The translations under genes and the position numbers were made by a program. Shown here piece by piece: positions 32,009 to 50,385 of a stretch of DNA of 64,000 bases (position 1 is its first letter; each line of letters begins with the position of its first letter). This DNA is from Microtetraspora sp. NBRC 16547. GTDB lineage: Bacteria > Actinomycetota > Actinomycetes > Streptosporangiales > Streptosporangiaceae. Location of the stretch: contig NZ_BSSE01000028.1 in assembly GCF_030268965.1 (NCBI RefSeq), positions 1 through 64,000 on the forward strand, read 5' to 3'. A model generated the notes under the pieces. The model did no database searches. It saw only the letters and a program-made list of their open reading frames with translations, and was not told the DNA's origin.

Positions 32009-33229
32009 TCAGCCCGGCCGGACCGCTCCGCGAAAGGCCGTCATGTAGTGGTGGGAGCCCAGCACGTCCACCTTCTTGACCACGTCGCCCGTCTTCGGGG
32101 CGTGGATCATCATCCCGCCCCCGGCGTACATCCCTACGTGCGTGGGGACGCCGCCGGTGCCGCCGAAGAACATGAGGTCACCCGGACGTAAGTCGCCGAG
32201 AGTCACCCGGCGGCCCTGGCGGAACTGGGTGCCCGTGTAGTGGCCGAGGCCGACCCCGGCCTTCGCCCAGGCCGCCATCACCAGACCGGAGCAGTCGAAG
32301 CCGACCCGTGCCGCTCCCCTGCCGACTCCCCTGCTGGGCCCACCGGCCGCCCCGCCGCCCCAGGTGTACGGCGTGCCGAGCCAGCTCTCCGCCGCCTTGA
32401 CCGCCAACTCACCCCGGACCTCGGTCACCTGCACGGCCGGAGCACCCCGCGTCTCGGTCGCCTGCATGGCCGGAGCACTCCGCGTCTCGGCCGGGGCCGC
32501 CTCCCCCGAAGCCGGGCTCCACGCATCAGATGTCTGCGTATCCGGCGCCCGTGTGTCCGGCGCCTGTATGTCCGGCGCCTGTATGTCCGGCGCCTGTATG
32601 TCCAGTGCCTGTGTGTCCGGGATCCCGGCGTCCAGACTTCCCGACGCCGGGAACTCCCCGTACAGGGTGCGGGCGTCCGGTGCCCGGCCATCCGATGTCT
32701 GCGCGTCCGCGTCTCGCGTACCGGGCTCCGGCACCCCGTCGCCGGCACCGGCTGAGGGCCAGTCCACGACATGGAGGCATGTCTCGAACCTGTCGAGGCG
32801 GGCCGCGAGGAGCGCGTCCCAGTGCGCGGACACGAACGCCTCTCGGGACCAGAAGGCGCCGCCGGGCAGCGGGAAGGCCCACGAGCGGGCTCGCAAAGCT
32901 CCCAGCCACTTTTTCAGGCTTGCCCGCCACCGCTCTTCCCATCTCGCCCCGGACGGCTCCGGCAGAGCCGATCGCCGCCACTGCTCTCCGGCCGTCCAGT
33001 GCGGCCCCTGTCGGGAGCGGCCGGAGCCGTAGGGCGCTCGGCGGCTGGAATCGCCCGGCGACCGAACGTCACCCGGCGACCGGGGAGGCCGCTCGGGCGG
33101 CGCGGCGCAGGAGCTCGGGGCCGTCGCATCGAACGCCGAGCCCCTGGGGACACCCGTCGTGGGGCCGATGATCGTCACTCCGGCCATGGCCGCGGTGCCA
33201 AGCTTGACGGCGAGCATGATGGGGATCAC
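32009..33229 (-). CDS. NlpC/P60 peptidase with repeat-rich N-terminal region
   Basis: The C-terminal 140 residues are a C40 cell-wall peptidase: WLGTPYTWGGG, catalytic Cys in GFDCSGLVM, LRPGDLMFFGG and His in THVGMYAGGGMMIHAP. It should cut peptidoglycan stem peptides. GTG 33229 is chosen because AGGAGG lies 6 bases upstream; the next residues (IPIMLAVKLGTAAMAGVTII) could be a signal sequence. Between them lie about 230 poorly conserved residues including DIQAPDIQAPDIQAPDTRAP repeats. Its 3' end faces the GntR gene. Confidence 0.85.
   Translation of the reverse strand: MIPIMLAVKLGTAAMAGVTIIGPTTGVPRGSAFDATAPSSCAAPPERPPRSPGDVRSPGDSSRRAPYGSGRSRQGPHWTAGEQWRRSALPEPSGARWEERWRASLKKWLGALRARSWAFPLPGGAFWSREAFVSAHWDALLAARLDRFETCLHVVDWPSAGAGDGVPEPGTRDADAQTSDGRAPDARTLYGEFPASGSLDAGIPDTQALDIQAPDIQAPDIQAPDTRAPDTQTSDAWSPASGEAAPAETRSAPAMQATETRGAPAVQVTEVRGELAVKAAESWLGTPYTWGGGAAGGPSRGVGRGAARVGFDCSGLVMAAWAKAGVGLGHYTGTQFRQGRRVTLGDLRPGDLMFFGGTGGVPTHVGMYAGGGMMIHAPKTGDVVKKVDVLGSHHYMTAFRGAVRPG
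32531..32620. repeat. 15-bp coding repeats in the NlpC/P60 gene
   Basis: About six copies of a 15-base unit (TGTATGTCCGGCGCC and variants) encode pentapeptides of the form DIQAP/DTRAP on the reverse strand. Two or three copies are identical, indicating slippage. Confidence 0.85.
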
Positions 33230-33541
33230 GCGCTCCTCCTGAGTCCGATCGAAATCGAGGCCCAGCATCTGAGTCGGCGGCCCGGCGGTAAGTGACCGAA
33301 AGCGGTTCTGGGGATAAGCGTCAGCGTGTGGACAAGCTCGTGATCCGGATCACCCTCGCGATCCGGATCGCCCCCTCTCCAGAACGGGTAACCACCGAGC
33401 GACACGATCGGGGTCGTGGCGGCGGAATCGGGGAATGCCGATCTCGATGCGCCTGTCGAGGGTCCGCCCGATCATGGGAGATGCCGGTCGTTCCGCCGCT
33501 CCCGGTTCGGCCCCGTCCTTGACGGGCCGGACGCCTCGTAA

Positions 33542-34928: not shown

Positions 34929-35954
34929 CTACGGCCAGGAGGAGTCCTGGTCGGGGTCGCCGCCTCCGGCGAGGAGATTGAGGTCGGCCTCGACCATCAT
35001 GGCGACGAGTTCCTCGAACGAGACCGTCGGCTCCCATCCGAGCTGCGCCCTGGCCTTCTTCGGATCGGCGCAGAGCAGGTCCACCTCCGCCGGCCGGTGC
35101 AGGGCCTGATCGCAGACGACGTGCCGCTCCCAGTCCAGGCCGGCCGCGCCGAAGGCGGCCTCGACCAGCTCCCGTACGGACTGCGTCCGGCCGGTGCCGA
35201 TCACGTAGTCCTCCGGCTCGGCGGCCTGGAGCATCAGATGCATGGCCCGGGCGTAGTCACCGGCGAAGCCCCAGTCGCGCCGCGCCTCCAGGTTGCCGAG
35301 CCGCAGCTCGGAGGCGAGGCCCAGCTTGATCCGGGCGACGCCGAGGCTCACCTTGCGGGTGACGAACTCGGCTCCGCGCCTCGGCGACTCATGGTTGAAC
35401 AGGATGCCGGACACGGCGTACATGCCGTACGACTCGCGGTAGTTCTGGGTGAGGAAGTGCCCGTACGCCTTGGCCACGCCGTACGGGGACCGGGGATGGA
35501 ACGGCGTGCGCTCGTTCTGCGGGGTCTCCCGCACCTGGCCGAACATCTCTGAGGACGAAGCCTGATAAAAGCGGATCTGGCCGGAACCGGCGCCGCGGGC
35601 GGCGGTGATCCCGGAACAGACCCGGATCGCCTCCAGCATGCGGAGCACACCCATTCCGGTGACCTCGGCGGTGAGCTCCGCCTGCTCCCACGACATCGGG
35701 ACGAACGAGATCGCGCCCAGGTTGTACACCTCGTCGGGCTGGACCTTCTCCACGGCGGAGATCAGCGACCCCTGGTCCAGCAGGTCGCCCCGGACGAGCT
35801 GGACATCCTGGAGCAACTTGCGCACCCGGGAGACCCGGGGGTTCGCCTGGCCGCGCACCAGCCCCCAGACCTCGTATCCCTCACCCAGCAGGTGTTCGGC
35901 GAGATACGAGCCGTCCTGGCCGGTGATGCCAGTGATCAGCGCACGCCTGGCCAA
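34929..35954 (-). CDS. gmd: GDP-mannose 4,6-dehydratase
   Basis: Extended SDR converting GDP-mannose to GDP-4-keto-6-deoxymannose, the precursor of GDP-fucose, GDP-rhamnose and similar sugars. Visible are the NADP loop GITGQDGSYLAEHLL, ASSSEMFGQ, the active-site SPYGVAKAYGH and FNHESPRRGAEFVTRK, which is diagnostic for Gmd. TTG 35954 (341 aa) is preferred: GAGGAGG lies 5 bases upstream and the NADP loop starts at once. An ATG at 36002 would add 16 residues. No reductase or epimerase for a GDP-deoxysugar is in the window. Confidence 0.9.
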   Translation of the reverse strand: MARRALITGITGQDGSYLAEHLLGEGYEVWGLVRGQANPRVSRVRKLLQDVQLVRGDLLDQGSLISAVEKVQPDEVYNLGAISFVPMSWEQAELTAEVTGMGVLRMLEAIRVCSGITAARGAGSGQIRFYQASSSEMFGQVRETPQNERTPFHPRSPYGVAKAYGHFLTQNYRESYGMYAVSGILFNHESPRRGAEFVTRKVSLGVARIKLGLASELRLGNLEARRDWGFAGDYARAMHLMLQAAEPEDYVIGTGRTQSVRELVEAAFGAAGLDWERHVVCDQALHRPAEVDLLCADPKKARAQLGWEPTVSFEELVAMMVEADLNLLAGGGDPDQDSSWP

Positions 35955-36084
35955 GGGATCCTCCTCGCATCGGGGGGCACCCGAATTCTCCGAAGTCCGC
36001 ATGAGATAGCGGTGTAAGCAGCTATGAGAGGCGAATGTACCCCTCTGGTCCGATCTGAGCGCAGTCGCGACACGGAGAACCTAC

Positions 36085-36221: not shown

Positions 36222-36257
36222 CCAAGGGGGGCACAACTGGAGAGGGGTGCCCCTTGG
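36222..36257 (+). promoter_or_regulatory. Hairpin enclosing the ribosome site and start codon of the GT4 gene
   Basis: CCAAGGGG (36222-36229) pairs with CCCCTTGG (36250-36257), extended by CAC/GTG (36232-36234 with 36247-36249) after a two-base bulge. The 12-base loop contains GGAGAGGG, and the pairing strand contains the TTG start at 36254. Folded, the start codon would be hidden, so translation may be controlled. This depends on TTG being the true start. Confidence 0.5.
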
Positions 36258-37498
36258 CGGAGAGGCTGCGAGTCGCGCTGCTGTCCTATCGCAGCAAGCC
36301 CACCTGTGGCGGGCAGGGGGTGTACCTACGCCACATCAGCCGTGAACTGGTCGCGCTCGGCCATCATGTGGAGGTCTTCTCCGGCCAGCCGTACCCAGAG
36401 CTCGACGAAGGCGTCATCCTCAACAAGGTCCCGAGCCTCGACCTCTACGACGACGCCGACCCGTTCCGCACGCCGAAGCTCGGCGAGTACCGCGACTGGA
36501 TCGACGCGCTCGAAGTCGCCACGATGTGGACGGCCGGCTTCCCCGAGCCGCTCACCTTCAGCCTGCGGGCCTATCGCGAGCTCAAGAAGCGCCAGGGCGA
36601 CTTCGACGTCGTCCAGGACAACCAGACCCTCGGGTACGGCCTGCTGGGGATCCAGAAGCTCTTCCCCGTGGTCGGCACCATCCACCACCCGATCAGCGTG
36701 GACCGGCGCATCGAACTGGAGGCCGCCAAAGGCTGGAAGAAGCTCTCCATGCGCCGCTGGTACGGATTCGTCCGTATGCAGAGCATCGTCGCCCCCCGGC
36801 TCAGCCCGATCCTCACCGTCAGCGAGTCGTCCCTCGCGGACATCCACCGCGACTTCAACGTGCCGCAGTCCAACATGCGGCTGATCCCGCTCGGCGTGGA
36901 CACCCGCTTCTTCCACCCCCGCCCCCACCTGCCGAAGCGGCCCGGCTCGATCGTGGCCGTGGCGAGCGCCGACTCCCCTATGAAGGGCGTCGCGACCCTG
37001 TTGCGCGCGGTCGCCAAGCTCGCCACCGAGCGCGACGTCAACCTGACCGTCGTCAGCAAGCCCACCCCCGGCGGGCCGACGGAGAAGCTGGTCGCCGAGC
37101 TCTCCCTGCACGACCGGGTCCGGTTCGTCCACGGCATCTCGGACGAGGAACTGGCCGAGCTGATCGCCACGTCGGAGGTCTCGGTCGTGCCCTCGCTGTA
37201 CGAGGGCTTCTCGCTCCCCGCGGTGGAGCACATGGCGTCCGGCACGCCCCTCGTCGCCTCCAGGACTGGCGCGCTGCCCGAGGTCGTCGGGGACGCCGCC
37301 ATCCAGGTCGCTCCCGGCGACCCGGAGGAGCTGGCCGCCGTCCTGCGCCGCCTGTTCGACTCGCCGGAGGAGCGCGCGGAGGTCGGCCGCAAGGGCTACG
37401 ACCGCGTGATGGAGCGCTACGCGTGGCCGGTGGTCGCCCAGCGCACCGTCGACGCCTACCGCGAGGCCATCGCCGCCCGTACGGCCATCGCCTCGTGA
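36254..37498 (+). CDS. GT4-family glycosyltransferase
   Basis: A 414-aa GT-B retaining glycosyltransferase. The N-terminal acceptor domain begins RVALLSYRSKPTCGGQGVYL. The C-terminal nucleotide-sugar domain has the E-x7-E motif in PSLYEGFSLPAVEHMASGTP. The only start upstream of the conserved RVALLSY is TTG 36254, with GGAGAGGGG before it. It heads a forward group with a methyltransferase (90 bases downstream) and the overlapping toroid protein. Donor and acceptor are unknown; the nearby gmd makes a GDP-deoxysugar a possible donor. Confidence 0.85.
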   Translation: MAERLRVALLSYRSKPTCGGQGVYLRHISRELVALGHHVEVFSGQPYPELDEGVILNKVPSLDLYDDADPFRTPKLGEYRDWIDALEVATMWTAGFPEPLTFSLRAYRELKKRQGDFDVVQDNQTLGYGLLGIQKLFPVVGTIHHPISVDRRIELEAAKGWKKLSMRRWYGFVRMQSIVAPRLSPILTVSESSLADIHRDFNVPQSNMRLIPLGVDTRFFHPRPHLPKRPGSIVAVASADSPMKGVATLLRAVAKLATERDVNLTVVSKPTPGGPTEKLVAELSLHDRVRFVHGISDEELAELIATSEVSVVPSLYEGFSLPAVEHMASGTPLVASRTGALPEVVGDAAIQVAPGDPEELAAVLRRLFDSPEERAEVGRKGYDRVMERYAWPVVAQRTVDAYREAIAARTAIAS

Positions 37499-37588
37499 GA
37501 TCACGCCGTGGCACCGGCGCCCTGGTGCCCGCGCGCGTCACGAAGCCGGACCGGAAGCAATCCGCATGATCATGAAAGGTAGGCAGGA

Positions 37589-38302
37589 GTGCTGACCGTC
37601 GACTTCGAACGGCTTCCCGTCGGGCCTGGCGACCGCGTTCTCGATCTCGGCGCCGGCGGCGGCCGGCACGCCTTCGAGGTGCTGCGCCGGGGTGCCGATG
37701 TGGTGGCGTTCGACATGGACGCGGCCGAGCTGGAAGGCGTCGCCGCGATGTTCGCCGCCATGGACAAGGAGGGCCAGATCCCTCCGGGGGCCTCCGGCGA
37801 GACCGTGGTCGGCGACGCGCTCGCCATGCCGTTCCCCGACGCGTCCTTCGACCGGGTGATCGCGGCCGAGGTGCTGGAGCACATCCCCGACGACATGGCG
37901 GCCATGCGGGAGATCGTCCGCGTCCTCAAGCCGGGCGGGCGAGCCGCGATCACGGTGCCGAGCTTCCTGCCAGAACGCATCTGCTGGGCGCTGTCCGAGG
38001 ACTACCACACCGCCCCCGGCGGGCACATCCGGATCTACACGCTGGCTGAGCTCAAGGCCAAGCTGAAGGCGTCCGGCCTGGAAGTCGGCTCCCACCACCA
38101 CGCGCACGGCCTGCACGCGCCGTACTGGTGGATCAAGTGTGCGGTGGGCGTGAACGACGACGACCATCCGCTGGCCAAGGCGTACCACGAACTCCTGGTG
38201 TGGGACATCATGAAGCGTCCCGCCGCCACCCGGATCGCGGAGACCCTGCTCAACCCTCTGATCGGCAAGAGCGTGGTCGTCTACGTCCGGAAGCCCGTAT
38301 GA
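37589..38302 (+). CDS. SAM-dependent class I methyltransferase
   Basis: A 237-aa Methyltransf_11-type enzyme. SAM motif I is RVLDLGAGGGRHAFEVL, the acidic residue after strand 2 is in VAFDMDAAE, and motif II/III are FDRVIAAEVLEHIPDD and VLKPGGRAAITVPSF. The His-rich segment SHHHAHGLHAPYWWIKC is distinctive and may bind metal or substrate. The stop overlaps the start of the toroid gene (ATGA), so the two are coupled. Substrate unknown. Confidence 0.87.
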   Translation: MLTVDFERLPVGPGDRVLDLGAGGGRHAFEVLRRGADVVAFDMDAAELEGVAAMFAAMDKEGQIPPGASGETVVGDALAMPFPDASFDRVIAAEVLEHIPDDMAAMREIVRVLKPGGRAAITVPSFLPERICWALSEDYHTAPGGHIRIYTLAELKAKLKASGLEVGSHHHAHGLHAPYWWIKCAVGVNDDDHPLAKAYHELLVWDIMKRPAATRIAETLLNPLIGKSVVVYVRKPV

Positions 38303-39357
38303 GCGTCCCGGCGGTCCCCGGAGCGATAGCAGCGGATCAGGTGGTGGCCACCGCGAGGAGCATCGCGGCGGTCCAGGACGACGAGGGCGGCGTGCCGTGG
38401 CCGGAGGGCCACATCGACGCGTGGAACCACGTCGAATGCCTGATGGCCATGACCGTGGCCGGACTCCGCGAGGAGGCCCGCCGGGGGTACGACTGGCTCG
38501 TCAGATATCAGCGCGAGGACGGCTCGTGGCCGATGAAGGTGGCCGGCGGCGAAGCGGTCGAGAAGGGCGGCGAGTCCAACCACGCCGCCTACGTCGCCGT
38601 CGGGGTCTGGCACGACCTGCTCGTGACCGGCGACGAGGACTTCGCCGCCTCCATGTGGCCGATGGTCGCCAGAGCGCTCGACTTCGTCGTCGGGTTGCAG
38701 ACCACCCGCGGCGAGATCGTCTGGGAACGCGACGCACAGGGCGCTCCCGCGGCGTACGCGCTGCTCACCGGTTCCGCGTCGATCTATCAGGGGCTGCGCA
38801 GCGGTGTCCTGCTCGGTGAGCGGCTCGGCGATCCGCAGCCCGACTGGGAACTGGCCGCCGACCGGCTCGGACACGTGCTCGCCGCCCACCCCGAGGCGTT
38901 CGCCGACAAGAGCCGTTTCTCGATGGACTGGTACTACCCCGTCCTCGGCGGTGCCGTACGCGGGACCGCGGGCGAAAAGCGCGTCGAGGAGGAGTGGGAC
39001 ACCTTCGTCGTCCCCGGGCTCGGCGTCCGCTGTGTCTCCGACCAGCCCTGGGTGACCGGCGCGGAGTCCTGCGAGTTGGTGCTGACCCTGGACGCGATGG
39101 GCGACCGGGAGCGGGCCCTGCGCGTCTTCGCGGACATGCAGCACCTGCGCCACGAGGACGGCTCGTACTGGACGGGCTGGCAGTTCGTGAACGAGAAGCA
39201 CTTCCCGCACGAGCGCTCCGCCTACACGGCGGCCGCGGTGATCCTCGCGGCCGACGCGCTGTCCGGAGCCACGGCGGGGGCCTCGATCTTCCGCGACGCC
39301 GGCGTGGACGACGTCCGCATCACCGGCGACTGCGGCTGCGAGCACGCCCGCGCCTAG
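38299..39357 (+). CDS. Alpha/alpha-toroid protein (prenyltransferase/squalene-cyclase-like)
   Basis: A 352-aa protein with recurrent helical hairpins and QW-like motifs (QREDGSWPMKV, RHEDGSYWTGWQF), as in terpenoid-cyclase/prenyltransferase toroids. The catalytic DxDD of squalene cyclases is absent. Single aromatic-acidic patches (SMDWYYPVLGG, HIDAWNHVECLMAM) also recall six-hairpin glycosidases. The C-terminus is DVRITGDCGCEHARA, with clustered Cys/His. The ATG overlaps the methyltransferase stop. Annotation as a prenyltransferase would rest on fold only; a glycan- or polyprenyl-binding role is equally possible. Confidence 0.75.
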   Translation: MSVPAVPGAIAADQVVATARSIAAVQDDEGGVPWPEGHIDAWNHVECLMAMTVAGLREEARRGYDWLVRYQREDGSWPMKVAGGEAVEKGGESNHAAYVAVGVWHDLLVTGDEDFAASMWPMVARALDFVVGLQTTRGEIVWERDAQGAPAAYALLTGSASIYQGLRSGVLLGERLGDPQPDWELAADRLGHVLAAHPEAFADKSRFSMDWYYPVLGGAVRGTAGEKRVEEEWDTFVVPGLGVRCVSDQPWVTGAESCELVLTLDAMGDRERALRVFADMQHLRHEDGSYWTGWQFVNEKHFPHERSAYTAAAVILAADALSGATAGASIFRDAGVDDVRITGDCGCEHARA

Positions 39358-39411
39358 ATCCATCGGTGCCCGGAGCGAAGGCTTCGATCGGGGGCTCCGA
39401 CCCAAAGCCGG

Positions 39412-39876
39412 GATACCAGCCCGCTCGTCGCCGGGCCGACCGACGTCCCCATGATCCTCAGCCCATTGGAGGCCGCCGAGGATCCCGAACTCGCCGTCCT
39501 GTCAGTGATCACCCACGCGTACACGCCGGAGGCCCCTGACATCCTGAACGCCCTGCTCACCGCAGTGCACAAGCTCGATCCCCAACGGGGCGCCCTATAC
39601 GCTGACATGGTACGCGCGGCGCTGCCCCTCAAGATCTGGGAGCACCTGGAGAATCTCATGCAGACCGAAACCCGCAAATACCTCAGTGAGTGGGCCCGCA
39701 ACAACGTGGCCGAGGGCATGGCTGAATCGATCTTCGCGGTGCTCTCCGCACGTGGTCTCGACGTACCGGAGGACGTACGCGCCGAGATAAACGCCTGCAC
39801 CGACCTCGCCCAGCTCGACGCGTGGATCCGAGCCGCCGTCACCGTGGAATCGGCACGCGACCTGCTCGACACCTGA
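39412..39876 (+). pseudogene. C-terminal remnant of an Rpn-like (PDDEXK nuclease/transposase) protein
   Basis: From about 39412 the frame reads SPLVAGPTDVPMILSP, EDPELAVLSVITHA, later YLSEWARNNVAEGMAESIF, then VLSARGLDVPEDVRAEI. This corresponds to the C-terminal half of the Rpn family common in actinomycetes (LRPLVLGP, DPELAVLSA, EGMAE.....LEARGL). The N-terminal nuclease half is missing; upstream codons show no similarity. An ATG at 39451 could still start a 141-aa protein. I treat it as decayed. Confidence 0.6.
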
Positions 39877-39925
39877 AACACGACCTGCACCGGCAACCGC
39901 CGGGCCGCCATGACGAACCCAACCG

Positions 39926-39948
39926 CCGGATCGTTCAAGACGATCCGG
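39926..39948 (+). terminator. Hairpin after the Rpn-like remnant
   Basis: CCGGATCGT (39926-39934) pairs with ACGATCCGG (39940-39948), 9 bp with a 5-base loop, 50 bases past the remnant's stop. The following stretch to 40153 has no gene. It includes a GCTCTGACCGCATAGG segment that may be the edge of a lost mobile element. Confidence 0.5.
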
Positions 39949-40153
39949 AGGCGGCGTTTCCGGGGAGCGTTCAGAGGCCAGGCGTCTTGTGGGTGACGGG
40001 GCCTCTGGCTATGGCTAGTGCTCTGACCGCATAGGTTCGCCGGGTCGGTGGTCGCTTCGTTCACCCTGGGAGCGATCTGTGTTTCTGGGTGGCGGTATCA
40101 CGCAGAAGAAAAAGTGGTTGCCCCGGGACCAGAGCTCATGTTGGCTGGGCAGC

Positions 40154-40693
40154 ATGGCTGAACTGCGTACCGATCGCCTCATCATGCGCCGATGGCGTGA
40201 CTCCGACCTTGAACCGTGGGCGGCGATGAATGCCGATCCCGAAGTCCGGGAGCACTTGGGCGACCTGCTTACCCGCGAACAGAGCGATGCCTCCGTGTCG
40301 CAATTTCAGGCGGAGTTCGACCAGCGAGGCTACGGGTGGTGGGCGGTTGAGGTGGAGGCCACGGGCGAGTTCATCGGCTTCGCAGGCTTGGATGAAGTGG
40401 ACGACTACATGCCGTTCACAGGAGTGGAGATCGGCTGGCGGCTCGCCCGCTCGGCCTGGGGCCAGGGCTACGCTACCGAGGCTGCGCTGACAGTCCTGGC
40501 CCACGGCTTTGACGCTCTTGAGCTTCCTGAGATCCTCGCTGTCACAACGGCCACCAACCTTCGTTCCCAGGCGGTGATGCGCCGGATCGGCATGACCCGG
40601 GACCCGGCCGACGACTTCGACGACCCCACCGAGCCCGAAGGGCCGCTGCGTCCGAACGTGCTGTACCGCATCGCCCGTAGTGCGAGGATCTAA
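40154..40693 (+). CDS. GNAT N-acetyltransferase (RimJ/RimL-like)
   Basis: A 179-aa acetyltransferase beginning MAELRTDRLIMRRWRDSDLEP, the usual start of the RimJ/RimL group. The acetyl-CoA loop is seen in WRLARSAWGQGYATEAALTVL, followed by ATNLRSQAVMRRIGM. ATG 40154 is preferred because the upstream in-frame ATG (40079) adds non-homologous residues; the ribosome site is weak for both. The target (protein N-terminus, amino sugar or drug) is unknown. It converges with the second methyltransferase. Confidence 0.8.
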   Translation: MAELRTDRLIMRRWRDSDLEPWAAMNADPEVREHLGDLLTREQSDASVSQFQAEFDQRGYGWWAVEVEATGEFIGFAGLDEVDDYMPFTGVEIGWRLARSAWGQGYATEAALTVLAHGFDALELPEILAVTTATNLRSQAVMRRIGMTRDPADDFDDPTEPEGPLRPNVLYRIARSARI

Positions 40694-40723
40694 CGTTCTC
40701 CGCTGGGGTCGGCGGTCAGAGTG

Positions 40724-41368
40724 CTAGATGCCCGGCCCGGTACGTTCGAGGACGCGCAGGGAGCCCTCGGCACGGACCTCGGTGAAGGCCCCCGAGGCGA
40801 TGGCCCGGAGATAGACGCGGTACGGCGCCTGCCCTCCGTCCGCCGGATCCGGATAGATGTCGTGGAAGACCAGCGCGCCGCCGTCGATCACATGTGGAGC
40901 CCACCCCTCGTAGTCCCTGGTCACCGGCTCCTCGGAGTGCCCGCCGTCGATGAAGAGCAGGGCCAGCGGCGTGTTCCAGTGCCGGGCGACGGTCTCGGAG
41001 GCGCCCACCACGGCGATGACCTCGTCTTCCAGACCGGCGGCGGCGATGGCCCGCCGGAAGAACGGCAGCGAGTCCATCTTCCCGAAGCACGGGTCCATCA
41101 GGGTGGGGTCGTGATGGGCCCAGCCCGGCTGGATCTCCTCCGAGCCGCGGTGGTGGTCCACCGTGAAGACGACCGAGCCCGCCGCCCGGGCGCCTGCTCC
41201 GAGGTAGATCGCCGACTTGCCGCAGTACGTGCCGATCTCGCAGATCGGGCCGCGCGAGCCGTACGCGCGGGCGAGTTCGAAGAGGGCCATGCCCTCCTCC
41301 GGCGGCATGAACCCCTTGGCCCGTTCGGCCGCGTACCGCAGATCCGCGGGCATCGTGACGGTGTTCAC
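40724..41368 (-). CDS. Class I SAM-dependent methyltransferase (Methyltransf_24-like)
   Basis: A 214-aa enzyme with SAM motif I PICEIGTYCGKSAIYLG, VVFTVDHHRGSEE, and LALLFIDGGHSEEPVTRDYEGW. The DGGHS segment is typical of the O-methyltransferase / cephalosporin-hydroxylase-like group and often coordinates a metal. The start is GTG 41368. It lies beyond the remnant and GNAT gene but may belong functionally to the GT4-methyltransferase-toroid set. That link is an inference. Confidence 0.83.
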   Translation of the reverse strand: MNTVTMPADLRYAAERAKGFMPPEEGMALFELARAYGSRGPICEIGTYCGKSAIYLGAGARAAGSVVFTVDHHRGSEEIQPGWAHHDPTLMDPCFGKMDSLPFFRRAIAAAGLEDEVIAVVGASETVARHWNTPLALLFIDGGHSEEPVTRDYEGWAPHVIDGGALVFHDIYPDPADGGQAPYRVYLRAIASGAFTEVRAEGSLRVLERTGPGI

Positions 41369-44400: not shown

Positions 44401-45408
44401 CTAATCCGACGAGAAGGCCGCGTCGAAGGACGCCTCCGGCGGGGTGATGGCGTTCAACCTCCGGATGTACGCCAGGGACTCCGGAGCGCCGGCGAGGCGG
44501 TCCATGCCGGCGTCCTCCCACTCGATCGAGATCGGGCCGTCGTAGCCGATGGCGTTCAGGGCGCGGAAGCACTCCTCCCACGGCACGTCGCCCCGTCCGG
44601 TCGAGACGAAGTCCCAGCCGCGCCGCAGGTCCGCCCAGGGCAGGTGGGACGACAGGCGGCCACGGCGGCCGTCGCCGAGGCGGACCTTCGTGTCCTTGCA
44701 GTCGACATGGTAGATCCGGTCGGCGAAGTCGAGGATGAACCCGGCCGGATCGACCTGCTGCCACACCATGTGCGAGGGGTCCCAGTTCAGCCCGAACGCC
44801 TCGCGGCGGCCGACGGCCTCCAGGGTGCGCACCGTCGTGTGATAGTCGTAGGCGATCTCGCTCGGATGCACCTCGTGTGCGAAGCGCACGCCCACCTCGT
44901 CGAAGACGTCCAGGATCGGGTTCCACCGGTCGGCGAAGTCCTGGTAGCCCGCCTCGATCATCGACGGCGGGACCGGCGGGAACATCGCCACGGTGTGCCA
45001 GATGGACGACCCGGTGAACCCGACCACCGTTTCGACGCCGAGCTTCGCCGCCGCCCTCGCGGTGTCCTTCATCTCCTCGGCCGCGCGCCGCCGTACCTCC
45101 TCGGGGTCTCCGGAACCCCACAGACGCGCGGGCAGGATGGCCTTGTGCCGCTCGTCGATCGGGTGGTCGCAGACGGCCTGCCCGACCAGGTGGTTCGAGA
45201 TGGTCCACACGCCGAGGTTGTGCTTGGCGAGGATCTCGCGTTTGCGGTCCACGTACGTGTCGTCGGAGAGGGCCTTGTCCACCTCGAAGTGGTCGCCCCA
45301 GCAGGCGATCTCCAGGCCGTCGTACCCCCATTCGGCGGCGAGCCGGCACACCTCCTCGAAGGGGAGATCGGCCCACTGCCCGGTGAACAACGTGATCGGT
45401 CGCGTCAT
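44401..45408 (-). CDS. Sugar phosphate isomerase/epimerase (AP-endonuclease-2 TIM barrel)
   Basis: A 335-aa TIM-barrel enzyme. Metal-site residues are visible in [43 protein letters not shown] and [12 protein letters not shown]. Members isomerise or dehydrate keto-sugars and inosose-like compounds. ATG 45408 has GGAGGAG upstream. It is the last gene of the sugar operon, 93 bases after the dehydrogenase, with short degenerate GGGGATGTCA-like repeats between them. The substrate is probably the oxidised product of the Gfo/Idh/MocA enzyme. Confidence 0.88.
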
Positions 45409-45501
45409 GTGCGCTCCTCCCGGTACGGGATCTCTGGGGATTTCAGGGAATGTCAGGGGATGTCGGAAGCGGCGGCAGCGGAACGGTTACGTCAGAAGCG
45501 G

Positions 45502-46662
45502 TCACAGCGGCGTCCACCGGGACGCGTTCGCCGCGCTCTCCTCGACGGCCGCCAGGACGCGCTGCACGCGCAGGCCGTCCTCGAACGAGGGTGACGGATC
45601 GGTCCCGGCGGCGACGGCCGCGAGGAAGTCCCGCACCTCGTGCGTGAAGGTGTGCTCGTAGCCCAGGCCGTGGCCCGGAGGCCACCACGCCTCCATGTAC
45701 GGATGACCGGGCTCGGTGACAAGGATCCTTCGGAACCCCGCGTCCGCCTCGGTCTCGTCGTGGAACCACAACTCGTTCATGGCCTCGAAGTCGAACGCCA
45801 GGCTGCCCAGCGAGCCGTTGACCTCCAGGCGGAGGGCGTTCTTGCGTCCGGTGGCGAAGCGGGTGGCCTCGAACGACCCCAGCGCCCCGCCGTCGAACCT
45901 GCCGATGAACAGCGCCGCGTCGTCCACGGTGACCTGTCCCCGCCCGTCCGTACGGCTCCCGCCGGCGAGCCCGCTGGCGCCTTCGGCCAGCGGCCTCTCC
46001 TTGATGAAGGTCTCGGTGAGGGCGGAGACGCCGGTCAACGCCTGGCCGGTGACGAACTGGGCGGTGTCCACGATGTGCGCGCCGATGTCTCCGAGCGCCC
46101 CGGAGCCTGCCTTCTCCTTCCGCAGCCGCCACACCAGGGGAAACTCGGGGTCCACGATCCAGTCCTGGAGGTACTGGGCGCGGACGTGCCGGATCTCTCC
46201 GAGGCGTCCCTCGGCGACGAGCCTCCTGGCCAGCGCGACGGCCGGCACCCGCCGGTAGTTGAAGGCGACCATGCTCCGCACGCCGCGCGCCGCCGCCTTC
46301 GACGCCGCCGCGGCCATGGCCTCCGCCTCCGCCACGGTGTTGGCGAGCGGCTTCTCGCAGAGCACGTGCTTGCCCGCCTCCAGCGCGGCGATCGCGATCT
46401 CCGCGTGAGTGTCCCCGGGCGTGCAGATGTCCACGAGCTGCACGTCGTCCCGCCGGACCAGCTCCCGCCAGTCCGTCTCGACGGCGGCCCAGCCGAGCTC
46501 GGCCGCGGCCGCCCTGGCGCGGTCCTCCGACCGGCCGGAGAGCACCGCCATCGACGGCGCCACCGGCAGGTCGAAGAACGCGGTCACATTCCGCCAGGCC
46601 TGGGAGTGCACGCGCCCCATGAACGCGTAGCCCACCATGCCCACCCCGATCAGCGGCTTCAC
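45502..46662 (-). CDS. Gfo/Idh/MocA-family dehydrogenase
   Basis: A 386-aa NAD(P)-dependent sugar or cyclitol dehydrogenase. The Rossmann start is VGMVGYAFMGRVHSQAW, with CEKPLANTVAEAEAM carrying the conserved lysine of EKP and HIVDTAQFVTG the catalytic-type histidine/aspartate region. The GTG start overlaps the stop of the binding-protein gene (GTGA). It probably oxidises the imported sugar before the isomerase acts. Confidence 0.9.
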   Translation of the reverse strand: MKPLIGVGMVGYAFMGRVHSQAWRNVTAFFDLPVAPSMAVLSGRSEDRARAAAAELGWAAVETDWRELVRRDDVQLVDICTPGDTHAEIAIAALEAGKHVLCEKPLANTVAEAEAMAAAASKAAARGVRSMVAFNYRRVPAVALARRLVAEGRLGEIRHVRAQYLQDWIVDPEFPLVWRLRKEKAGSGALGDIGAHIVDTAQFVTGQALTGVSALTETFIKERPLAEGASGLAGGSRTDGRGQVTVDDAALFIGRFDGGALGSFEATRFATGRKNALRLEVNGSLGSLAFDFEAMNELWFHDETEADAGFRRILVTEPGHPYMEAWWPPGHGLGYEHTFTHEVRDFLAAVAAGTDPSPSFEDGLRVQRVLAAVEESAANASRWTPL

Positions 46663-47723
46663 GATTCGAACCCCAGTGGGAGGTAGGTCGCGGCGTTGTC
46701 CTTGGTGATGGTCTCGGACGCGAGGGTGATCGACTGCGGGACCTCGTTCTCGGTCAGGTCGGACATGCCCTTGCCCTGGGCGATGAGCCGGGCCAGCTTG
46801 ATCGCGGATGACGCCATCGTCGGGCTGTAGGTCACCGTGGCCGCGAGCACGCTGCTCCCGGACTGGATCTCGCGCATGGCATTCGCCGATCCGGCGCCGC
46901 CGACCATGATGAACTCGCTGCGGTTCGCCTCCTTGATGGCGGCGAGCACGCCGATGCCCTGATCGTCATCGTGGTTCCAGATGGCGTCGATCTTCTTGTG
47001 CGCCTGCAGCAGGTTGCTGGCCACCTTGGTGCCGGACTCGACGGTGAACTGCGCGTCCTGCTTCGCCGTGACGCTGAAGCCGTACGCCTTGAGCGCGTCG
47101 GCGAAGCCCTTGCTGCGGTCCTGGGTCAGCGGCAGTGTGGCGATGCCCTGGATCTCGACGATCACGGGGTTGGACACCCCCTTCTCCTTGAGCGCCTTAC
47201 CGATGTAATGCCCAGCGGCCACGCCCATGCCGTAGTTGTCGCCACCGATCCAGGTCCGGTACGACAGCTTGTCGGGGAAGACGCGGTCGAGGTTGACGAC
47301 CGGGATGCCGGCGTCCATCGCCTGCCTGGCCACCTGGTTGAGCTGCTGCCCGTCGTTCGGCAGCAGCACCAGGACGTCGACCTTCGCCTGGATGAGGGAC
47401 TCCACGGCGGAAATCTGCTGGTTGATGTCGTTCGTCGGCTCCACCGGCTTGAACACCACGTCGGAGTACTGCTTCGCCGCGGCCTCGGCGTTCTTGGCGA
47501 TGGCCGCGATCCAGCCGTGGTCGGCGGCCGGGGCCGAGAATCCGATCGTCACCTGCGTTCCGGGCTGGTCGTTGCCACCCGCCGCGGCGGCGGTCGTGGG
47601 GGCCGCGGCCGCCGCGCTGGGCTGCGCGGCCGGCTCGTTGCTCGTGCACGCGGAGACGAGCGCTCCCGCGCCGAGTACGGCACCGCCGAGGAGGAATCCC
47701 CGGCGACCGGTGTTCTGGGTCAT
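46659..47723 (-). CDS. Sugar ABC transporter substrate-binding lipoprotein
   Basis: A 354-aa periplasmic-binding-protein-1 fold (RbsB-like). The signal sequence has a twin arginine (GRRGFLLGG) and a lipobox LVSAC with Cys26, so it may be exported by Tat and lipidated. The mature protein reads VTIGFSAPAADHGWIAAIAKNAEAAAKQY in parts, with VLLPNDGQQLNQVARQAMDAG typical of ribose-type binders. It belongs to the importer with the next two genes upstream. The ligand cannot be read from sequence. Confidence 0.92.
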   Translation of the reverse strand: MTQNTGRRGFLLGGAVLGAGALVSACTSNEPAAQPSAAAAAPTTAAAAGGNDQPGTQVTIGFSAPAADHGWIAAIAKNAEAAAKQYSDVVFKPVEPTNDINQQISAVESLIQAKVDVLVLLPNDGQQLNQVARQAMDAGIPVVNLDRVFPDKLSYRTWIGGDNYGMGVAAGHYIGKALKEKGVSNPVIVEIQGIATLPLTQDRSKGFADALKAYGFSVTAKQDAQFTVESGTKVASNLLQAHKKIDAIWNHDDDQGIGVLAAIKEANRSEFIMVGGAGSANAMREIQSGSSVLAATVTYSPTMASSAIKLARLIAQGKGMSDLTENEVPQSITLASETITKDNAATYLPLGFES

Positions 47724-47849
47724 GTGCTCTCCCTGTTCGGATGGGCGGCGAACCGCGTGAAGAGAGGGATCGAGGGCGTGAGGGGCCGGGGCCGCGAGTC
47801 GTCTCCCGGCCCTTACGGCATGCGTTGGTGGGGCTCACGGCCCCACGGG

Positions 47850-48836
47850 TCAGGTGCCGGTGAGTGCGCCGCGCCGCTGCATCAGCACGGCGACGACGAT
47901 GATCAGGCCTTTCGCGATGAGCTGGTCACTGGTGTTGAGCCCGTTCAGGATGAACAGGTTGGTGATCACGGTGAAGATCAGGAGGCCCAGGATCGAGCCG
48001 ATGATGGTCCCCCGGCCGCCGGTGAGGAGGGTGCCGCCGATGATGACGGCGGCGATGGCGTCCAGCTCGTAAAGGTCGCCGTGGGTGGAGGAGCCGGTGG
48101 TCGTCCTGGCCATGATGAGGACCGCCGCGATCCCGCAGCACAGGCCGGACAGCCCGTACAGCAGCATCGTGTGGCGCCGGACGTCGATGCCGGCCAGCCG
48201 GGCCGCTTCGGGGTTGCCGCCGACGGCGTAGGTCCTGCGGCCGAACGTGGTCCGGTTGAGCAGGATCCAGCCGAGCGCCACCACCAGGGCGAAGACGTAG
48301 ACGAGCAGCGGCAGCCCGAGCACCCGGGTGGTGGACAGCTCGACGATGGCGTTGTTGGCCTGCTGGACCAGCTGGGTGCGCTGGTTGGACATGCGCTGGG
48401 CCAGGCCACGCGCCGCCACCAGCATGGCAAGGGTGGCGATGAACGGCACCATCCGGCCATAGGAGATCAGGAAGCCGTTCACCAGCCCGGCCCCCGTGCC
48501 GACCAGCAGCGCGCACACGATCATGACCGCCGGGCCGTACGACTGGGTGGCCAGTGTGGTGGCCCACACGGAGGACAGCGCCATGACCGCGCCGACGGAC
48601 AGGTCGATGCCGCCTCCGATGATCACGAACGTCATGCCGACCGTGATCACGCCGATGGTCGAGGCGAGCGCGAGGATGCTCACCAGGTTGGAGGAGGTGG
48701 CGAAGTTCTCCGGCCTGGTCGCCAGGCCGACGATCGCCAGGAGGACGAGCGCGGCGACGAGGCCGAGATGCGGCACCTCCCCGATCTTCCCCAGGAAGGG
48801 CCTTTTCGCCACGCTTGTCGGGGTCGCCTCAGTCAA
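47850..48836 (-). CDS. Sugar ABC transporter permease (RbsC-like)
   Basis: A 328-aa permease with 8-10 hydrophobic helices. It has GGGIDLSVGAVMALSSV, GRRTYAVGGNPEAARLAGI and GGTLLTGGRGTIIGSILG, the hallmark segments of the BPD_transp_2 (RbsC) group. It starts with TTG 48836, supported by GAGGAG 7 bases upstream and by an 8-base overlap with the ATPase gene. 126 bases separate it from the binding protein. Confidence 0.92.
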   Translation of the reverse strand: MTEATPTSVAKRPFLGKIGEVPHLGLVAALVLLAIVGLATRPENFATSSNLVSILALASTIGVITVGMTFVIIGGGIDLSVGAVMALSSVWATTLATQSYGPAVMIVCALLVGTGAGLVNGFLISYGRMVPFIATLAMLVAARGLAQRMSNQRTQLVQQANNAIVELSTTRVLGLPLLVYVFALVVALGWILLNRTTFGRRTYAVGGNPEAARLAGIDVRRHTMLLYGLSGLCCGIAAVLIMARTTTGSSTHGDLYELDAIAAVIIGGTLLTGGRGTIIGSILGLLIFTVITNLFILNGLNTSDQLIAKGLIIVVAVLMQRRGALTGT

Positions 48837-50385
48837 CGCGGGACTCCTCGTTCGTCGAAACCATGACCAGGTCGAGGACGCGGTGCTCGTCGAGGTCCAC
48901 GGCGGGAGCCTCGTGCACGATCCGGCCCTCGCGGACGACCAGCACCCGGTCCGCGAGCCCGAGCACCTCGGGGACCTCGCTGGACACCAGCAGGACCGCC
49001 ACGCCGTCGTCGGCCAGCCGCCGGATGACGGCGTACAGCTCGGCGCGGGCGCCCACGTCCACGCCGCGGGTGGGCTCGTCGAGCAGCAGCAGCCTGCGGC
49101 CCTCGACGAGCCAGCGGGCCAGCACCGCCTTCTGCTGGTTACCGCCGGACAGCGTCTTGACCGGCCGGCGCGGATCAGGCGGCCGGATGTCCAGCGCCTC
49201 GATCAGCCGGGCAGCCTCGGCCGCCTCCCCGCGCCGGTCCATCCAGCCGAAACGCGAATAGCGGGTCAGCCCGGCGAGCGTGATGTTGCGCGCCACGCTC
49301 TGGTCCAGCAGCAGGGCCTGCGCCTTCCGCTCCTCCGGGGCCAGGCCCATGCCGAGCCGTACGGACCTGGTCGTGTCGCCCGGGCGTACGGCGCGGCCGT
49401 CGAGCAGGACCCGGCCGGACGCCCTGCGCGCGCCGTAGACGGCCTCGATGATCTCGGACCGGCCGGAGCCGACCAGACCGGCCAGCCCGACGATCTCCCC
49501 CGCCCGCACGGAGAAGGAGACGTCGGCGAAGACGCCCGGCACGGTCAGCCCCTCCACCCGCAGGACCTCGGGCCGTTCCTCGGGCCGCTCCTCGGACCGC
49601 TCCTCGGGCACGGCCGGGCGCGGCGGGAAGACGTACTCGACGTCGCGCCCGGTCATCAGCGAGACGACCTGCCCGGTCGGGGTCGTGGCGGGCAGTCCGA
49701 CCGCGACCGTGCGGCCGTCCTTGAGAACGGTGACCCGGTCGCCGATCTCGCGGATCTCCTCAAGACGGTGCGAGATGTAGACGACCGCGACGCCCTGGGC
49801 GGTGATCTCGCGGATGATCCGGAACAGGTTGGCCACCTCGTCATGCGCGAGCGCGGCGGAGGGCTCGTCCATGACGATCAGGCGGGCGTCGTGCGAGAGC
49901 GCGCGGGCCATGCTGACGATCTGCTTGGCGGCGGGAGGAAGCCGTCCCACCTCGGTGGCCGGCGGGATCTCCCCGTGACCGAGCCGCCGGAGCAGGTCCG
50001 CCGCGATCCGATTGGTCTCTCCGCGCCGGGTGAACCCGAAGGAGGCCCGCTCATGGCCGAGGAGGATGTTCTCGGCCACGGACAGCCCGTCCACCAGGTC
50101 GAGCTCCTGGTAGATGGTCGCGATGCCCTGTTTCATGGCCGCGGTCGGGGTGGCGAGCCGTACCGGCTCGCCGTTCAGCAGCACCTCGCCCTCGTCCGGC
50201 TGGTGCGCGCCCGAGAGGATCTTGATGAGGGTGGACTTGCCCGCGCCGTTCTGGCCGAGCAGGCAGTGCACCTCGCCGGCCCTGACCTCCAGGTCGACGC
50301 CGTCCAGGGCCCGCACGCCAGGGAACCGTTTGACGATTCCCCGCATGGCGAGCAGGGGTGCCGTGTCGGGGGGTGACGCCGGCAT
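48829..50385 (-). CDS. Sugar ABC transporter ATP-binding protein (RbsA-like)
   Basis: A 518-aa double ATPase. The first domain has Walker A GQNGAGKSTLIK, and Walker B RLIVMDEPSAAL. The second has a degenerate Walker A (GLVGSGRSEI) and intact signature LSGGNQQKAVLARWL with LLLLDEPTRGVDVG, the usual asymmetry of ribose/simple-sugar ATPases. A short RSEERPEERPE linker repeat lies in the middle. It lies 34 bases after the ROK gene. Confidence 0.93.
   Translation of the reverse strand: MPASPPDTAPLLAMRGIVKRFPGVRALDGVDLEVRAGEVHCLLGQNGAGKSTLIKILSGAHQPDEGEVLLNGEPVRLATPTAAMKQGIATIYQELDLVDGLSVAENILLGHERASFGFTRRGETNRIAADLLRRLGHGEIPPATEVGRLPPAAKQIVSMARALSHDARLIVMDEPSAALAHDEVANLFRIIREITAQGVAVVYISHRLEEIREIGDRVTVLKDGRTVAVGLPATTPTGQVVSLMTGRDVEYVFPPRPAVPEERSEERPEERPEVLRVEGLTVPGVFADVSFSVRAGEIVGLAGLVGSGRSEIIEAVYGARRASGRVLLDGRAVRPGDTTRSVRLGMGLAPEERKAQALLLDQSVARNITLAGLTRYSRFGWMDRRGEAAEAARLIEALDIRPPDPRRPVKTLSGGNQQKAVLARWLVEGRRLLLLDEPTRGVDVGARAELYAVIRRLADDGVAVLLVSSEVPEVLGLADRVLVVREGRIVHEAPAVDLDEHRVLDLVMVSTNEESRVD

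Follow-up and report, generated by a model that had tools for sequence, protein, structure and literature searches.

A probable 3-O-methylmannose polysaccharide gene cluster in Microtetraspora, its range across Actinomycetota, and two types of MmpH active site

The DNA analyzed here (the window) is a stretch of 64,000 nucleotides from Microtetraspora sp. NBRC 16547 (assembly GCF_030268965.1, contig NZ_BSSE01000028.1, positions 1 to 64,000), and between positions 36254 and 41368 it carries four genes that we assign below to the 3-O-methylmannose polysaccharide (MMP) cluster. A family GT4 glycosyltransferase, an S-adenosylmethionine (SAM)-dependent methyltransferase, and a toroid protein are encoded in tight forward order, and the last two genes overlap by the ATGA that joins the mmpH start to the pmeT3 stop, just as an earlier reading of the sequence alone (the original prediction) had described. 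That reading also had a second methyltransferase gene following in the same cassette. The gene is present and encodes the predicted DGGHS motif, but it lies on the minus strand, convergent with manT-pmeT3-mmpH, and therefore belongs to a separate transcript. A scan of the region for promoters and terminators gave no signal above that of shuffled sequences. The four genes, and the MmpH residues discussed below, are as follows.

36254 to 37498, plus strand: manT, predicted homologue of the GT4 alpha-1,4-mannosyltransferase that uses GDP-mannose to elongate MMP; 414 amino acids; PDB 7QSG
37589 to 38302, plus strand: pmeT3, class I SAM methyltransferase (Methyltransf_11), putative MMP 3-O-methyltransferase; 237 amino acids
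38299 to 39357, plus strand: mmpH, predicted homologue of the (alpha/alpha)6-toroid alpha-1,4-endomannosidase that produces primers by cutting mature MMP; 352 amino acids; PDB 7QSJ
38416 to 38427, plus strand: mmpH residues D40-A-W42-N43, aligned with D47, W49, and D50 of Mycolicibacterium (M.) hassiacum; D50 is replaced by Asn here
39202 to 39225, plus strand: mmpH residues F302 to Y309, whose ends align with W308 and W315 of M. hassiacum; aromatic pair that switches with position 43
40724 to 41368, minus strand: meT1, SAM methyltransferase (Methyltransf_24), predicted homologue of the MMP 1-O-methyltransferase; 214 amino acids; PDB 6G7D

A search of solved structures placed the GT4 protein with 7QSG (E value of 2e-145 over residues 5 to 408, the next-best structure lying at 9.1e-26), the toroid protein with 7QSJ (1.3e-121), and the minus-strand methyltransferase with 6G7D (2.4e-76), all three matches spanning nearly the full length of the proteins. 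The paper that deposited two of these structures (PMC9883506, called here the source paper) gives 7QSG as ManT and 7QSJ as MmpH, although the PDB label of 7QSG reads inositol-phosphate glycosyltransferase. The middle methyltransferase occupies the pMeT3 slot between manT and mmpH, like MHAS_04403 by locus number. A predicted model of the toroid protein, based on 28 sequences, had a predicted local distance difference test score (pLDDT) of 90.5 and a predicted template modeling score (pTM) of 0.91, and its top fold match was again 7QSJ, with a template modeling (TM) score of 0.90. The next different protein in this search reached a TM score of 0.62 by query length, and apart from 7QSJ none of the 50 fold matches listed exceeded 0.73 by query length; toroid-fold isomerases, glycosidases, and cyclases all fell far below 7QSJ.

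In the source paper, ManT, MmpH, and MeT1 are characterized enzymes and pMeT3 is a putative one, and MHAS_04402 to MHAS_04405 of M. hassiacum encode ManT, pMeT3, MmpH, and MeT1, respectively (PMC9883506). This order, read from the locus numbers, matches the order seen here. Homology, gene order, the conservation of the catalytic residues that have been tested, and the predicted fold of MmpH all point the same way, and the four genes very probably form an MMP cluster, most likely working as published for mycobacteria. If the enzymes of this organism have the corresponding activities and its polymer is MMP, recycling would begin with MmpH, which would cut mature MMP into defined oligomannosides. 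ManT would then extend these with alpha-1,4-mannose from GDP-mannose, pMeT3, whose activity is itself putative, would add 3-O-methyl groups, and MeT1 would cap the free 1-OH at the new reducing end. The original prediction had grouped the genes in a shared pathway for a methylated glycan. The grouping holds, with the genes co-occurring across the phylum sample described below, but the pathway that it called unassigned matches that of MMP, and we saw no sign of the polyprenyl or other lipid carrier that it suggested.

Linkage of the genes was followed in two sets of loci. The phylum sample comprised 396 Actinomycetota genomes, 65 of which, including the source genome, encode MmpH, and flanks of at most about 9 kilobases were fetched for the other 64. 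The second set, referred to here as the named loci, consists of the best 80 of 505 stretches encoding a relative, all from Streptosporangiaceae. A chance grouping of the four genes is excluded because the order manT-pmeT3-mmpH recurs in 62 of the 64 phylum loci and in 79 of the 80 named loci; both misses in the phylum sample have little contig upstream (110 and 632 bases). MeT1 was found within the fetched flank in 57 phylum loci (53 on the opposite strand and 4 on the same strand) and elsewhere in the genome for six of the remaining seven, the seventh genome being 68% complete. It was likewise found in 71 of the named loci, on the opposite strand in every one of them, at a distance from mmpH of 7 to 6864 bases (median, 1137). 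The survey of toroid homologues that the original prediction proposed as a check therefore bears out its expectation that a GT4 enzyme and methyltransferases would accompany them.

The range of the cluster is wide. MmpH is encoded in 197 of 200 genomes of the source organism's order, and in each of the 26 MmpH loci read among these, pmeT3 lies upstream together with all or part of manT. By their kinship labels, the 64 phylum loci span 17 families besides the source organism's own, 13 outside its class. The source paper describes a search for the cluster in mycobacteria, in eight related actinobacteria, and in Hoyosella; it also names Corynebacterium, Rhodococcus, Streptomyces, and Nocardia as genera with MmpH homologues (PMC9883506). 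Because that search covered a narrower range, the reach into other classes of Actinomycetota is an extension of it. We found no prior report in the open-licence literature of the cluster in these classes or of the two MmpH active-site types described below. Closer to home, the nearest named genomes are those of Microtetraspora glauca, Microtetraspora fusca, and Microtetraspora malaysiensis, whose toroid proteins are 94, 92, and 90% identical to the one studied here, respectively. A plasmid search returned a single match, a Nonomuraea record of 11.85 Mb, which is the size of a chromosome and has no annotation at the matching place.

Several observations weigh against assigning these genes to MMP synthesis. 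The PDB label of 6G7D reads only "methyltransferase domain protein," and it is presumably the 1-O-methyltransferase MeT1. In Nonomuraea aridisoli (locus L115), mmpH has about 5 kilobases of upstream sequence without manT or pmeT3, for which a rearrangement or an assembly fault is a suggested alternative explanation. Locus L152 has Asn at the position of MmpH D47, with the other three cluster genes present. MmpH position 50 is Asn both in the protein studied here (N43) and in all 80 named loci, and here Trp315 of the -1 subsite is replaced by Tyr and Phe102 by His. The M. smegmatis locus numbers, as printed in the source paper, place MeT1 before MmpH, unlike the arrangement here (PMC9883506); in the loci fetched from family f4, which includes close relatives of the M. 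hassiacum MmpH, MeT1, where found, lies beyond MmpH. Finally, a search of titles and abstract openings found no mention of either MMP or 3-O-methylmannose from Streptosporangiaceae.

In ManT, the positions of G15, H142, K240, and E313 are invariant among readable homologues, and E321 is Glu in 141 of 142. In MmpH, E262 (E256 here), the catalytic base (PMC9883506), is Glu in 144 of 144 sequences, and D47 (D40 here) is Asp in all 80 named loci and in 62 of the 63 readable phylum loci. Position 50 is less constant. An alanine at D50 drastically reduced the activity of the M. hassiacum enzyme, and the authors leave undecided whether D47 or D50 is the general acid, with D47 marked as the putative acid in a figure (PMC9883506). 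Since 37 of the 63 readable phylum loci have Asn at this position and keep the cluster, we do not treat D50 as a residue that defines MMP clusters.

Position 50 switches together with positions 308 and 315. In a set of 98 MmpH rows, the 47 that combine D50 with W315 all carry Trp at position 302 of the protein studied here. This position corresponds to Trp308 in our own numbering, a designation absent from the text of PMC9883506. Of the 42 rows that combine N50 with Y315, 39 have Phe and 3 have Tyr at position 308; in the nine intermediate rows, with N50 but W315, the residue is Trp (7 rows) or Phe (2 rows). Because positions 43 and 309 served to define the groups, position 302 alone counts as an independent finding. 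The D50/W308/W315 type occurs in mycobacteria and others, and the N50/F308/Y315 type in Streptosporangiaceae and most of the sampled actinobacteria of other classes. On a maximum-likelihood tree of MmpH (midpoint rooted on a long branch, with long rows flagged), well-supported branches force two changes for the N/Y state and four for the D/W state; the switch has therefore arisen in parallel or reverted. On the simplest interpretation, D47 acts as the general acid, and the residues at positions 50, 308, and 315 accommodate one another.

A more ambitious reading of the same pattern, which we put forward only tentatively and think unlikely to be right, is that the two MmpH types, switched in parallel, mark two methylmannans with a different recycling cut, and that the existence of the N/F/Y type assigns the role of general acid to D47 rather than D50. 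The best-surviving alternative to MMP itself has a similar basis and seems to us equally doubtful: the four enzymes would work by the same logic on a variant polymer whose chain differs at the MmpH cut site in methylation, acylation, or length, the N/F/Y residues reflecting that difference. The joint switch at the three positions and the two N/Y changes required by the tree are what one would cite for such a polymer, together with the acetylated form already known in Streptomyces griseus, according to the source paper. However, we found no column in ManT or pMeT3 with the same parallel pattern (ManT being partial for the order loci), whereas a change of substrate might be expected to leave such a trace, and the MmpH residues may compensate each other without any change of substrate. 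Moreover, in all 11 loci of family f3, presumed to be Streptomycetaceae, MmpH has the D50 and W315 residues of the mycobacterial type.

The remaining alternatives involve the fold of the toroid protein and the surroundings of the cluster, in which we distinguish the following features.

34929 to 36002, minus strand: GDP-mannose 4,6-dehydratase-like gene, divergent from manT; judged to lie outside the pathway
39358 to 40723, no strand: insert between mmpH and meT1, strain specific; judged to lie outside the pathway
39451 to 39876, plus strand: gene fragment in the insert, a 141-amino-acid frame corresponding to the C-terminal part of a longer gene
40079 to 40693, plus strand: GNAT acetyltransferase gene in the insert, apparently intact

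The original prediction envisaged a methylated glycoside or glycolipid of unassigned pathway on a polyprenyl carrier, in which the toroid protein would be cyclase-like or lipid binding and the adjacent dehydratase would supply a deoxysugar; this we now regard as very improbable. The toroid fold is indeed common to squalene-hopene cyclase and drimenyl diphosphate synthase, which appear among the fold matches from an E value of 8.9e-07, and the dehydratase gene adjoins manT, divergently and 186 to 402 bases away, in 79 of the 80 named loci. However, the best match in both sequence and fold is an enzyme of proven endomannosidase activity, with every cyclase far behind, and, as the original prediction had itself remarked, the translation (read by eye) contains no DxDD motif. 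The protein has no Pfam family at an E value of 0.01 or below, and it scores 15.2 bits against the NCBIfam cyclase family TIGR03463 (cut-off, 851) and 36.8 bits against the GH15-type family TIGR01577 (cut-off, 820.7); judged by these motif and cut-off tests, it is outside both the squalene-hopene cyclase family and the GH15 glucoamylase family. A characterized pathway goes unnamed by these two general libraries, MmpH having no Pfam match and only subthreshold NCBIfam matches. Of the outcome that the original prediction had named as counting against it, a toroid protein that proves to be a known glycosidase of central metabolism, half came true, in that the protein resembles a known glycosidase, but one of the MMP pathway.

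The dehydratase is dispensable to the cluster. Of the 197 genomes in the order that encode MmpH, 134 have a dehydratase match at an E value of 1e-60 or below and 63 do not, and one order genome has the dehydratase without MmpH. No dehydratase of more than 50% identity was found in any of the 64 phylum flanks, and in at least six single-contig genomes of genus g255 (G446, G476, G508, G516, G550, and G572) the gene lies more than 1 Mb away. Being without a match at that threshold in 63 MmpH genomes, often unlinked, and not seen in the phylum flanks, it is rejected as a pathway gene, and we read its adjacency as lineage synteny; of what was originally proposed, the position next door stands and the role in the pathway does not. 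Least likely of all is the synthesis of methylglucose lipopolysaccharide (MGLP) or of a glycogen-type alpha-glucan, to which one might be led by the 28 to 33% likeness of ManT to mycobacterial alpha-1,4-glucosyltransferases, as given in PMC9883506, and by the weak GH15-type match of the toroid protein, but that match is far under its cut-off, the GT4 protein is closest to ManT by a wide margin, and MmpH and MeT1 are mannose-pathway enzymes.

In Microtetraspora glauca, Microtetraspora fusca, and Microtetraspora malaysiensis, mmpH and meT1 are about 17 to 126 bases apart, and neither gene of the insert has a match in any named or phylum locus. The closest homologues of the fragment are frames of 284 to 338 amino acids (325 in locus L207), and a full-length relative has no Pfam match; longer homologues occur at other places in this genome and in the genus. 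What had been described as a decayed stretch is thus decayed in part, for the fragment is truncated but the acetyltransferase looks intact. The acetyltransferase was considered as a source of MMP acetylation and rejected for want of a counterpart, at an E value of 1e-8, in the named loci or in the phylum loci with their flanks of at most about 9 kilobases.

We also looked for a conserved neighbor that might make the first primer. Frames of 71 loci were compared, giving at least 46 groups, from which 12 frames outside the four genes were picked and 10 scanned with Pfam. All 10 belong to commonplace families (apolipoprotein N-acyltransferase, amine oxidase, M1 peptidase, PfkB kinase, GSDH, ferrochelatase, acyl-CoA dehydrogenase, aldehyde dehydrogenase, GtrA, and a metallo-beta-lactamase fold), and the idea was rejected; several other frame groups, judged by where they lie, seem to be the four genes read in a wrong frame or on the antisense strand. 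Elsewhere in the window, an NlpC/P60 gene at 32009 to 33268 contains low-complexity 15-base tandem repeats (5.3 copies, at 32541 to 32620), and the region from 44401 to 50385 resembles an inositol-type catabolic cluster, with genes for a periplasmic sugar-binding protein, a MocA-type oxidoreductase, a xylose-isomerase-like TIM barrel protein, and, as read from the translations, an ABC permease and ATPase.

The pathway itself was already known, and what is new here is modest, namely, its range across classes of Actinomycetota and the two MmpH active-site types. The pathway has been studied in mycobacteria, and its chemistry is known from Streptomyces; it is now placed in almost every genome sampled from one order and in other classes as well. 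With so wide a natural range, the start of the first chain could be studied in many soil strains, and the natural N/F/Y enzymes bear on which residue is the general acid.

Set beside known systems, the toroid protein can be compared with glycosidases of families GH15 and GH125, which are (alpha/alpha)6 toroids and with which MmpH shares its fold and the catalytic base E262; unlike them, MmpH acts endo on alpha-1,4-mannan, according to the source paper (PMC9883506), and the protein studied here has no Pfam match. Outside mycobacteria, Streptomyces griseus makes an acetylated MMP, a polymer of the same kind (figure legend in PMC9883506). In family f3, the trio is kept and MeT1 is present in 11 of 11 loci, with MeT1 several kilobases away and, as noted above, with an MmpH type unlike that of Microtetraspora. 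The closest comparison is with the MMP cluster of M. hassiacum and other nontuberculous mycobacteria (PMC9883506), which has the same four genes in the same order. Identity to the proteins of family f4 is 48 to 64% per protein, and the MmpH of one f4 locus (L160) matches 7QSJ at an E value of 3.7e-188. Relative to the M. hassiacum cluster, the catalytic residues are kept here except at MmpH position 50, MmpH has N/F/Y in place of D/W/W at positions 50, 308, and 315 and His in place of Phe at position 102, a strain-specific insert separates mmpH from meT1, and a divergent GDP-mannose dehydratase gene stands beside manT, as it does in nearly all of the named Streptosporangiaceae loci.

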